Source of the DNA: Gemmobacter sp. 24YEA27
GTDB taxonomy: Bacteria; Pseudomonadota; Alphaproteobacteria; Rhodobacterales; Rhodobacteraceae
Length of the DNA stretch: 64,000 bases
Assembly (NCBI RefSeq): GCF_030052995.1
Contig: NZ_JASJPW010000001.1
Span: forward strand, 2,780,001 to 2,844,000
Direction: 5' to 3'
Within the stretch, counting starts at the first letter, position 1. Each line of letters starts with the position of its first letter. A program made the position numbers and the translations under genes. Shown piece by piece: positions 38,029-40,860 of this stretch. The notes under the pieces were generated by a model. The model was not told the DNA's origin and did no database searches. It saw only the letters and a program-made list of their open reading frames with translations.

Positions 38029-38894
38029 TCAGTGGCTCGCACCTGCCGGCAAACACCGTGCGCTGTGATCGATCCCCCACTGTTCAATAATCCACGGATG
38101 CCGGGCGAGGCAGGCGGCCAGCGTATCCACGATGGTCAGGATCCGCAGTTTCTTGCCCAGGGCGAGCTGGTCATGGACAAAATCCATCGCCCAGACCTCG
38201 TTCGGTCCGGAGGCCTCCTGTCGGTCCTCGCGCAGCCTCGCCTTCACCCGGCGCTTCGGATGCCTGTTGCGCAGCTGCAGGCCCAGCTCATTGTAAATCC
38301 TGCGTGTCTTCTTGATGTTCACCTGCCAGCCCTCCCGCCGCAGCAGCACATGGATGCGCCGGTAGCCATAGCGCACACTCGTTTCGCAGATCTCGCGGAT
38401 CCGCAGTTCGAGGCCGGCCTGCACGGTGCGACGGGATTTGTAATGGTAGCTCGAAGTGTCGAACCGCTGCGCCTGGCAGGCCCGTCGGATCGAGACATCC
38501 CAGTCAACCAGAAGCCCGTCAACAAGCTTGCGCGTCTGGACAGGCCTCAGAGCTTTCGGCGGATGACGTCCTGCAGCATCTCGCGGTCGAGCGTCAGGTC
38601 CGCCACGATCTTCTTCAGCCGTGCATTCTCGTCCTCAAGCGCCTTCAACCGCCGCATCTCATCGGGAAGCAACCCGCCATAACGCTTCTTCCAGTTGAAG
38701 TATGTGGCCTGGCTGATCCCCGCCTTGCGGCAGATCTCGGCAACAGGCGTGCCTTCCTCGCCCTGCTTCAGAATGAACGCCTTCTGCGCTTCCGTGAACT
38801 TCGATGCCTTCATCGTCTTCAGCTCCTCTCCCAGCCAGGGAAAACTAGCCGAAAACTCAAGCTTAAGACGGTCCAGTTTCCAGGGGGCAGAGCA
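38029..38894 (-). mobile_element. IS3-family element, 3'-truncated
   Basis: The terminus TGCTCTGCCCCCTGG... lies at 38894. orfA (38813-38547, 88 residues) has an HTH ISQATYFNWKKRYGG and a zipper up to MLQDVIRRKL. The orfB frame overlaps its end in the -1 frame (PKALRPVQTRKLVDGLL), as is usual for frameshift-made IS3 transposase. It continues to NEVWAMDFVHDQLALGKKLR and IVDT, the first catalytic Asp region, then breaks off near 38110 into unrelated sequence. The element is dead for lack of the rest of the DDE domain. It sits inside an integrase gene. Confidence 0.88.
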
Positions 38895-38993
38895 TAGATA
38901 GTTGTCGGTTTCGGGTTGGGCAAGCGCCCGGCGCACGCCGAGGCGGTTTATCTGGGCCCGCCATTTGTCTTTATATTTTCTGATCGATGCCAT
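38895..38993 (-). pseudogene. Integrase 5' fragment interrupted by the IS3 element
   Basis: 33 codons, MASIRKYKDKWRAQINRLGV, then RRALAQPETDNYL, match the usual N-terminal beta-sheet region of tyrosine integrases (SIRKYKDKWRAQI). The IS3 end at 38894 interrupts it. It starts 138 bases beyond the 3' end of the tRNA-Leu gene, so it belonged to an element integrated there. The rest of the gene is not found to the left. Confidence 0.75.
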
Positions 38994-39131: not shown

Positions 39132-39484
39132 TGGTGCGGACGACGGGTCTCGAACCCGTAATTCCTTTCGGAAGGCAGATTTTCATCCCACTTCGGCTTT
39201 CGCCGCCGCCGGTTTCCCGGCGTTCGTGGGCTGGACTGTCCCTTTGCCATGGCCGCCGGGTCACCCGCAAAGGGCTTTCCGAAGGCTACAGGCACCACCC
39301 GTCCAGTCTCTACACCTTCCCCGGCATAGTCGCGCCGGGGCTTGGCTCGGGATTGGCGTAGGACCCTGCCTCACGGCCTGCCCCCTTAGCTTTCCCCGAA
39401 TTTGAGCGGTTCTGCACCGCAGGTTTCCCCACGGGCACTCCAATTGTCAAAGTCTGCTGCGTATACCAGTTTCGCCACGTCCGC
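39132..39484 (-). tRNA. tRNA-Leu (anticodon UAA) split by a group I intron
   Basis: Minus strand. The 5' exon at 39484-39450 holds acceptor GCGGACG, the D-arm and anticodon stem GCAGA plus CTT. The 3' exon at 39183-39132 holds AAAA, TCTGC, variable arm CTTCCGAAAGGAAT, T-arm ACGGGTTCGAGACCCGT, acceptor CGTCCGC, A and an encoded CCA. Joined, the anticodon loop is CTTAAAA, anticodon UAA, and the mature tRNA has 87 nt. The intron lies between U34 and A35, the position known for cyanobacterial and plastid tRNA-Leu(UAA) introns. The gene is probably also the attachment site of the degraded element to its left. Confidence 0.94.
39184..39449 (-). ncRNA. Group I intron (IC3-like) in tRNA-Leu(UAA)
   Basis: A 266-nt self-splicing-type intron. 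Core elements closely match the Azoarcus tRNA-Ile ribozyme: CTCAAATTCGGGGAAAGC (P3/P4/P5), CCGAGCCAAGCC (P6/P7 side), GGAAGGTGTAGAGACTGGAC (P7/P3/P8) and ACAGTCCAG (P7'/P9.0). The guide GAGU at 39440-39437 pairs with exon ACUU, leaving the U-G wobble at the 5' splice site. The last intron base is G (39184). There is no ORF inside, hence no homing endonuclease. Confidence 0.93.
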
Positions 39485-39674: not shown

Positions 39675-39965
39675 ATGGCCGATTTCAGCATTCAGAAAGA
39701 GCTCTCCGGCCAGGGCGGCCGATTTGTCATCTATAAGGATGGCGATGTGGCAGAGCTGACCTTTACCCGCCGCGCGCTTGACCTGGTCTCTGCCGATCAT
39801 ACCGGTGTGCCGGATGCCTTTCGCGGCACCGGCGCCGGCAAGGCCCTGGTCGAGGCGCTGATCGCCGATGCAAAGGCGAACACCTACCGCATCATGCCGC
39901 TTTGCAGCTTTGTTGACGCGCAGCGTCGGCGGCATCCGGAATGGGCCGATCTCTTCGTCGTCTGA
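39675..39965 (+). CDS. GNAT-like N-acetyltransferase (YidJ/COG2388 type)
   Basis: 96 residues, a minimal acetyltransferase fold: FVIYKDGDVAELTFTRRALD, then the acetyl-CoA loop VPDAFRGTGAGKALVEALI near residues 45-63, and IMPLCSFVDAQRRRHPEWAD at the end. Such small proteins are related to human NATD1; their substrate is unknown. Monocistronic, convergent with the lytic transglycosylase. Confidence 0.85.
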   Translation: MADFSIQKELSGQGGRFVIYKDGDVAELTFTRRALDLVSADHTGVPDAFRGTGAGKALVEALIADAKANTYRIMPLCSFVDAQRRRHPEWADLFVV

Positions 39966-39982: not shown

Positions 39983-40860
39983 TCAGCCCCCCGTCGCCGA
40001 CAAAACGCGGAAAACGCAAGGATCGGTGACCAGTTCCGGCGGGGTCTGGCAGAGGCCCTGCGCCACCTGCCAGGCCGCAAGCACCTTGGGCACATAGTCG
40101 CGGGTCTCGGCATAGGGCGGCACGCCGCCATTCTTGCGCACCGCCCCCTCGCCCGCATTATAGGCCGCCAGCGCCATCAGCGGGTCATTGTTGAATTCAT
40201 CGAGCAGCCAGTCGAGATAGGCGACACCGCCCTTGATGTTCTGCGCCGGATCGGTGGAATCGGTGACACCAAAGCGCGTGGCGGTCGCGGGGATCAGCTG
40301 CATCAGCCCCACCGCCCCCGCAGAAGAGACCGCATCCTTGCGCCCGGCGCTTTCGATCCCCATCACCGCCAGCACCAGCGCGGGTGAGACATCGGTCCCG
40401 ACCGTCGCGATCAGGATGTCGCGGCCATAGGTTTCGGCAATGGTCTGCATCGACTGCATCCGGGGCGCCTTCACCGAGGCCCCCCCGGTCCTTTGGTCAG
40501 GGCCGCCATCGCGTCAGGGAATCGCCCGGCAGAGCTGTTGATATCCGTCGGGATCACATCCCAGTACCAGGCGTAATTCGATTTCGGGCCGGGCCCGGGC
40601 GTGACATCGCCGTCTTTGCCCTGCTCAACCGGGGCCAGCGGGCGCTCTTCATGTTGCAATGCCGGATCTTTCCACGCGGTCGCCGCCAGGCGGCGCGCCT
40701 GTTCCACCGGGTCGATCTGCACCGTGATCCGCTTGCCGGGCAGCGTGTCGCCGACTTTCACCCGCCGGAAGGTGAAATCCTCCTGCTCGGCGTGCCCGGT
40801 GCCGGGAATCGCCAGCAAAACCAGAATCACCGCCAGGGTGCCTGAGACGAGACGCGTCAT
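39983..40860 (-). pseudogene. Lytic transglycosylase (SLT domain) with a one-base frameshift
   Basis: The first frame (40860-40471) starts with a signal peptide (LVSGTLAVILVLLAIPGTGHA) and ends KGPGGPR. The second (to 39983) continues VKAPRMQSMQTIAETYGRDI and holds the SLT domain: VMGIESAGRKDAVSSAGAVG with catalytic Glu, LMQLIPATATRFGV, LAAYNAGEGAV. Adding one G to the seven-G run at 40480-40486 (minus strand) restores one ~290-residue periplasmic muramidase. Possibly a sequence error. Confidence 0.82.

Follow-up and report, generated by a model that had tools for sequence, protein, structure and literature searches.

The locus described here raises the question of how a tRNA-Leu(UAA) gene in a member of the Rhodobacteraceae came to carry an intron at the position occupied in cyanobacteria, and whether the interrupted gene could still supply a functional tRNA. 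Within the window, i.e., the whole 64,000-nucleotide stretch of the Gemmobacter sp. 24YEA27 genome that was analysed, the original prediction placed a tRNA-Leu(UAA) gene split between U34 and A35 (position 34-35) by a group I intron of 266 nt. This was borne out by ARAGORN, which recognised the joined exons as tRNA-Leu(taa), as well as by the model search and the covariation described below. The coordinates of the gene, the elements of the intron core and the neighbouring genes are listed in Table 1.

Table 1. Features of the interrupted tRNA-Leu(UAA) gene and its surroundings (positions in the window)
Feature	Position	Strand	Basis or remark
Interrupted tRNA-Leu(UAA) gene	39484-39132	minus	87 nt mature, CCA encoded
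5' exon of tRNA-Leu(UAA), U34 last	39450..39484 (35 nt)	minus	ARAGORN on joined exons
Group I (IC3-like) intron, G terminal	39184..39449 (266 nt)	minus	Rfam Intron_gpI below gathering score, model R2, covariation
3' exon, A35 to encoded CCA	39132..39183 (52 nt)	minus	single match genome-wide
Internal guide GAGU with exon ACUU (P1), U-G at 5' splice site	39437..39440	minus	sequence
P2 hairpin, GAAA loop	39417..39434	minus	76% of cells paired; 7/7 pairs with two-sided changes
P3	5' strand 39404..39410, 3' strand 39294-39300	minus	covariation
P4-P5	39347..39399	minus	P4 39394-39399/39347-39352; P5 39389-39390/39356-39357
P6/P6a	39314..39346	minus	aligned-intron comparison
P7	5' strand GACUG 39304..39308, 3' strand CAGUC 39234-39238	minus	pseudoknot with P3
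P8	39246..39293	minus	longer than in most of 26 aligned introns
P9 region, two GAAA-capped hairpins	39188..39229	minus	aligned-intron comparison
GNAT-like acetyltransferase, synteny neighbour	39675..39965	plus	PF14542
Lytic transglycosylase (SLT), synteny neighbour	39983..40474	minus	PF01464
Two frames for transposases (HTH_Tnp_1 followed by HTH_21), adjacent to the tRNA 3' end on its downstream side	38029..38993	minus	Pfam

Standard tRNA annotation missed this gene, and the approximately one tenth of the group's genomes with a match to the intron model may hold others that it overlooks. ARAGORN run without introns found nothing at 39484-39132 and listed only tRNA-Arg(CCG) and tRNA-Val(CAC) in the window, the same two genes being the only matches of the 64-kb window to Rfam at the gathering thresholds. 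With introns allowed, ARAGORN called a tRNA-Phe(gaa) at the locus from the unspliced DNA; boundaries and names are frequently wrong in this mode. A 601-nt search with an E-value threshold gave a match to the Rfam family Intron_gpI (RF00028) at 39286-39459 on the minus strand, with 29.8 bits and an E-value of 1.1e-5, and in the whole 5.08-Mb genome the same locus (E 2.1e-5) was the sole match at E ≤1. The RF00028 gathering score of 50 bits, which was not reached, is a curator's threshold and not a biological feature, and the insert was classified as a group I intron on other features. Model R2 was derived from 19 introns found in other genomes; the window, L047, L049-L052 and L076 were excluded from it, and L048 and L053, which are also rather close (0.88 and 0.84, respectively, over trimmed columns), were retained. 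It had one match in the 64 kb, at 39233-39410 on the minus strand, with 109.9 bits and an E-value of 4.5e-27. The intron is real, belongs to a known kind of group I intron and is probably functional.

The four core blocks named in the original prediction fall in P3/P4 (CTCAAATTCGGGGAAAGC), P4/P6 (CCGAGCCAAGCC), the 5' strand of P7 (GTAGAGACTGGAC) and the 3' strand of P7 (ACAGTCCAG). In the window intron every named pair from P2 to P9 forms, and P7, which by homology we take to be the guanosine-binding helix, crosses P3. The pairing was evaluated in an alignment of 26 introns, comprising that of the window, 24 loci of its family and one plasmid intron. Standard pairs occupied 90.5% of the cells, versus a mean of 79.9 upon shuffling, and two-sided changes were detected in 30 of the 56 pairs, versus a shuffled mean of 19.1; in a control with the 3' strands slid by 1-3 columns, pairing amounted to 29-48%. 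Two-sided changes are present in P3, P5, P6a, P7 and P8: the last pair of P7 is A-U in 15 introns and G-C in 11 and is never unpaired, one pair of P3 is C-G in 14 and U-A in 12, and one pair of P5 is G-C in 19 and C-G in seven. The pairs of P7 and P3 are the strongest individual evidence among these. P4 is invariant and P6 nearly so in this set, so that neither has test value, and the outermost drawn pair of P3 forms in only two of the 26 introns. Since the minimum-energy fold of the intron alone was only modestly better than those of shuffled sequences (z -2.32), the structural case rests on the comparison, by which the core does fold. Besides its insertion in the anticodon loop at 34-35, the window intron has a short P5 region and GAAA in the P2 and P9 hairpins, and by the features of subgroup IC3 (insertion in the anticodon loop, absence of a P5abc domain and GAAA in the loops of P2 and P9) we take it to be a member of this subgroup. 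The IC3-like core, the insertion position known from cyanobacteria, the GAGU guide facing exon ACUU, the U-G at the 5' site and the terminal G are all present in the sequence, as had been predicted.

Guide sequences were surveyed in 205 distinct introns with an assigned host; the best match was taken within the first 40 nt, which makes short pairings easy to obtain. At least three contiguous guide-exon pairs together with U-G at the site were found in 139 of 139 Leu(UAA) 34-35 introns, and ACUU/GAGU was the best match in 117 of these. The same combination was found in all 28 Arg(CCU) introns, all 17 Ile(CAU) 36-37 introns and all four Arg(UCU) 34-35 introns, as well as in six of ten fMet introns and one of two Leu 33-34 introns, and not in the single Ile 33-34 intron. 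A GGGAA-type stretch, which may belong to P2 and not to the guide, scored best in 15 of the 28 Arg introns. The telling part of the survey is the four-base match of the Leu introns.

Taking these elements together, the transcript would most likely fold around a small group I ribozyme of the IC3 type; guanosine at P7 would bring about a cut after U34, positioned by the GAGU guide, and joining of the 3' exon would yield mature tRNA-Leu(UAA). A second, uninterrupted tRNA-Leu(UAA), which the original prediction had counted, together with a lack of splicing of this copy, as evidence against itself, was not found among the tRNAs read or by pattern searches. All 42 tRNA matches in the 5.08-Mb assembly were read with ARAGORN, and the leucine tRNAs among them were CAA, UAG, GAG and CAG. 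The assembly is 98.6% complete in 12 contigs and its tRNA list is incomplete, lacking Tyr and Ile(GAU); therefore, the absence of a second tRNA-Leu(UAA) leans also on the pattern searches. The 3' exon sequence occurs once in the genome, and three patterns for an uninterrupted Leu(UAA) arm found none in it, one of them finding only a Leu(CAA) arm. The interrupted gene is the only tRNA for UUA codons found in this genome. In 29 reading frames of the window, picked mechanically, only six of the 12,831 codons are UUA, and this low demand may explain the tolerance of the intron. The exon boundaries, a conserved and covarying core, the match of guide and exon and the lack of a second copy in the searches are all apparent at the sequence level. 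We infer that the intron is spliced in vivo, because seven members of the genus have retained both the tRNA and the core, with introns 67-99% identical, and none of the seven yielded an uninterrupted Leu(UAA).

It had been supposed that a Leu(UAA) intron is exceptional in Proteobacteria. However, when searched with model R1, which includes the window, 27 of the family's 295 genomes and 48 of the class's 385 genomes had a match at E ≤1e-5, the genome under study being counted in both. The tRNA host was readable in 26 of the 27 matching family genomes, and for the class the best 30 matches were retrieved. An uninterrupted Leu arm was found in at most 247 of the 295 family genomes, this being an upper figure since the looser pattern used admits some Leu(CAA) genes by one mismatch. 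That pattern replaced GTAGACGCAGCAGACTTAAAATCTGC, which was too narrow for a census of uninterrupted genes (28/295, including some Leu(CAA) genes). A search for tRNA halves without constraints was overfitted and returned nonsense anticodons, and exon signatures were used in its place.

Scanning of named public genomes gave at least 117 stretches, 115 of them readable. Among the matches listed, the hosts were Leu(UAA) 34-35 in 56 cases, Arg(CCU) in 20, Ile(CAU) in 15, fMet in ten, Leu(UAA) 33-34 in two and Arg(UCU) in one, with 11 loci lacking an assigned host; the gap range of the pattern (24-54) favours long P6 loops, and these proportions are not a census. The 56 Leu(UAA) introns among the matches listed comprise nine cyanobacterial, 30 alphaproteobacterial and seven betaproteobacterial ones and ten from other or less exactly named sources, 47 thus lying outside cyanobacteria. 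The place of the window intron is therefore less unusual than had been supposed.

Several loci could not be read by pattern (two of the 117 public-genome loci, and L218, L221, L233, L235 and L241 of the family and class sets). Reading by hand identified Leu(CAA) 33-34 (L102), Ile(CAU) 33-34 (L118) and Lys(CUU) 35-36 (L239, L246 and L247) as hosts. Further hosts, likewise interrupted in the anticodon loop, are Thr(GGU) (L055 and L064) and Arg(UCU) (L056 and L062). We know of no literature reports of hosts and positions such as Lys(CUU) 35-36, Leu(CAA) 33-34, Ile(CAU) 33-34, Thr(GGU) or Arg(UCU). In L140, a Lewinella record, and L180, the intron of tRNA-Leu(UAA) lies one position earlier, at 33-34. 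Three other loci (L147, L183 and L134) consist of an intron and a tRNA 3' half with an unrecognisable 5' half, the result either of decay or of a break in the assembly.

Bacterial tRNAs with group I introns serve as a textbook example in the discussion of intron age and movement. The relationships of the window intron were analysed in a quick tree of 205 introns and in careful trees of 193 and 63 introns. The trees cover loci with an assigned host, which sets aside 11 of the 115 readable genome loci and 52 of the 121 viral ones, and the 193-row tree, from which twelve long-branched rows had been dropped, had a bootstrap that had not settled. In all three trees the partner of the window intron is L047, from its own family (support 100/89 and 98/90 in the two careful ones), and in the 193-row tree this pair is the smallest well-supported set containing it; apart from this pair, branch support near the window is weak. 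Its neighbours are alphaproteobacterial Leu introns, and the same cluster contains most of the Arg(CCU) introns (97/95 in the 63-row tree) and two Thr(GGU) introns (100/99). Nesting of the Arg(CCU) introns within the window-type Leu introns was considered, but a Leu cluster held together without Arg and Thr was not rejected (p-AU 0.241); Arg and Thr held together gave 0.475. All that is claimed is that the Arg(CCU) and window-type Leu introns are close. The family's rows of the cluster, held as one clade, gave a borderline p-AU of 0.044 for a group named after the tree was seen. The 17 Ile(CAU) 36-37 introns formed a group of their own in the quick tree, with a support of 100.

The origin of the gene was approached by a comparison within the genus. 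According to R1, the intron is present in seven of 13 genomes (G000, which is the genome under study, G675, G678, G679, G680, G682 and G683). An uninterrupted Leu(UAA) gene was found in five of the six others (G676, G677, G681, G684 and G686, i.e., all but G685) and in none of the seven; a fixed-spacing pattern tried for this purpose detected it in one member of the genus, and another search was used in its stead. In five of the intron-bearing genomes (G000, G675, G682, G678 and G680) the order SLT-GNAT-tRNA is found in a single orientation with 0.1-0.2 kb between the GNAT gene and the tRNA. The same order occurs, about 1.5 kb apart, in the uninterrupted G681 and, by coordinates, in G676, G684 and G686. 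The intron-bearing G683 has SLT next to the tRNA without GNAT, and its downstream families F22 (found also in G681) and F10 (G676 and G681) are common with uninterrupted relatives, so that in this genome both flanks match. The intron-bearing gene of G679 had no shared neighbours within the 17 kb taken, and the contig piece of G677 was too short for the synteny comparison. Thus, the genus displays both states at one locus, which makes transfer of a whole gene separable from insertion of an intron.

The mature tRNAs differ between these two states. Among 12 genomes, identity averaged 0.97 (minimum 0.93) within the intron-bearing set and 0.92 (minimum 0.87) within the uninterrupted set, versus 0.66 (maximum 0.71) between the sets. 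The introns of the seven genomes are 0.67-0.99 identical, with changes mainly in loops and outer stems. The window tRNA is 0.89 identical to an intron-bearing tRNA of the Caulobacteraceae, versus 0.77 for the best of 18 distinct uninterrupted tRNAs of its own family; the sets differ in size (72 tRNAs of other families versus 18 from 22 loci of the 247 matching genomes), the former being by its size more likely to contain a high best match, and the means differ little (0.70 and 0.67, respectively). Exon and intron distances among 91 Leu rows were correlated (r 0.45, with none of 2000 permutations as high), a correlation that could stem from shared descent.

Such a split in tRNA identity is to be expected if a whole gene was replaced and then passed on vertically, but hardly from insertion alone, and most likely a foreign intron-bearing gene replaced the native uninterrupted one. 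The best explanation, to which as a whole we assign a probability of about 0.8, would be that the gene is the sole UUA tRNA found, that its transcript is spliced by an IC3-type ribozyme, and that an intron-bearing tRNA-Leu gene entered from another lineage, displaced the native uninterrupted one in some species of the genus and has since descended vertically. Unlikely, though still the most serious competitor, is a scenario in which the intron alone reached the anticodon loop of the resident gene, through reverse splicing or homing, and the tRNA drifted later. The guide needs just about CUU, which is common to the Leu(UAA) and Arg(UCU) 34-35 introns, and introns are carried by native-looking tRNAs in some members of the family: those of L065, L069 and L070 are 0.88-0.90 identical to their uninterrupted relatives, which suggests that resident genes, too, receive introns by insertion. 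However, the mature tRNAs of the two sets in the genus differ at about one third of positions, as opposed to 3-8% on average within each, and the best match of the window tRNA is an intron-bearing tRNA of another family; with 66% identity between the sets versus 92-97% within them, change of the exons after local insertion is hard to credit.

The same position and host tRNA could also be taken to mean that the intron was transferred directly from a cyanobacterium, or that an intron common to both groups was retained. We consider this improbable. The nine cyanobacterial Leu introns come together in the quick tree (SH-aLRT 99), apart from the 92-row set (support 96) that contains the window, and in the 193-row tree forcing them together with nine rows of the window group was 97 log-likelihood units worse, although the p-AU of 0.063 remained above 0.05; such a clade is disfavoured. 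Uninterrupted native alleles also exist in the genus. Of the two options raised in the original prediction, horizontal transfer was upheld as an option, while independent retention is not the simplest reading, with species of the same genus having a different, uninterrupted tRNA at the same place. Least probable is that the tRNA gene is dead and its insert decayed and unable to splice: the sub-gathering Rfam score would fit it, but the core is intact, the joined exons give a full tRNA, no other UUA tRNA was found, and the gene has been kept in seven of the 13 genomes while its loops diverged.

Synteny was seen only inside the genus, and among the proteins flanking the window's gene only IS pieces matched beside the tRNAs of other loci (1.5-kb flanks). 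The transposase frames downstream of the gene look IS3-like and degraded, the second appearing incomplete, and have partial near copies in L233. In the intron-bearing genomes other than G683, the mechanically called frames that follow the tRNA have no shared members but one, a phage-type integrase frame located about 1.8 kb downstream in G678 (L445 8826-9629); a related integrase frame lies about 0.1 kb downstream of the tRNA in the uninterrupted G684 (L448 7787-8824). The tRNA locus looks like an integration site, and one could guess that integration at it delivered the new tRNA.

Among known systems, the cyanobacterial tRNA-Leu(UAA) intron, which has a counterpart in plastids, shares with the window intron the tRNA, the position and a similar core, but the nine representatives sampled lie on a separate branch of the quick tree. 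A tRNA-Leu(UAA) intron in a gammaproteobacterium was reportedly described by Vepritskiy et al. in J Bacteriol in 2002, and the gammaproteobacterial one of Carnimonas nigrificans (L091) groups elsewhere than the window in our trees. The tRNA-Ile(CAU) intron of Azoarcus has the IC3 core layout in common with the window intron and differs in its position (36-37) and guide; betaproteobacterial Ile(CAU) introns stood in for it in the comparison. The alphaproteobacterial Arg(CCU) introns are of the same kind with the same core, and those sampled fall beside or within the window's Leu introns (BbgpI itself is absent from the trees), but they differ in the tRNA, the position (36-37 versus 34-35) and the guide. 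For BbgpI, the tRNA-Arg(CCU) intron of Bartonella bacilliformis, splicing in vivo and self-splicing in vitro are reported in PMC7717549, which also mentions its kin in alphaproteobacteria, and PMC8450103 describes group I introns in tRNA-Ile2 of Acidovorax and Burkholderia.

Besides the replacement within a genus, the interest of this system lies in its phage and plasmid carriers. Plasmid pCTX-M3 (NC_004464.2, L076 3963-4261) harbours an interrupted tRNA-Leu(UAA) gene in which both the exons and the intron are of the same type as in the window. The 299-nt L076 query matched 1280 of 72,556 plasmid records, 1257 of them with one place over at least 80% of the query, and the best place was at least 99% identical in 1273 of the 1280. 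This plasmid tRNA is close to the alphaproteobacterial ones and may mark the chromosomal source of that segment. In the two records examined (L076 and L395) the pCTX-M3-type gene is located near an AAA-ATPase frame and aac(3)-IId.

In IMG/VR, whose contigs are predicted viral and may include some bacterial DNA, at least 120 stretches were found, with one more detected by a second pattern (L274-L394). The 121 loci among the matches listed comprise 61 tRNA-Leu(UAA) 34-35 genes, eight other tRNAs and 52 loci without an assigned host; examples of tRNA-Leu(UAA) with an IC3-type intron are L313, L342, L285 and L319. Other tRNAs were located nearby in six of eight picked loci, and nine of ten neighbouring proteins matched a PHROG, including a UvsX-like recombinase, an SSB and a homing endonuclease. 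A shared junction motif was found in 22 of the 52 host-less loci (L384, L390, L310 and 19 others), and the upstream frames of L384, L390 and L310, the three searched, matched a phage major head protein. It is plausible that phages serve as a reservoir. One could tentatively propose that intron-bearing tRNA-Leu(UAA) genes are mobile self-splicing cassettes carried whole on phages, plasmids and islands, which displace resident tRNA genes at the loci of the latter and sometimes pass the intron on to Arg, Ile, Thr, Lys and fMet tRNAs, the window showing one replacement within a genus; we regard this generalisation as possible, with the odds somewhat against it.

The 2014 review PMC3984707 states that the phage introns observed up to then were all in protein genes, and according to a 2025 database paper (PMC11835236), over half of viral group I introns are IA2. 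In Gordonia phage Daredevil (NC_048021.1, L273 989-1300), an unannotated tRNA, read by ARAGORN as Lys(UUU), contains a 238-nt IC3-like intron and is located about 0.6 kb from the integrase gene.
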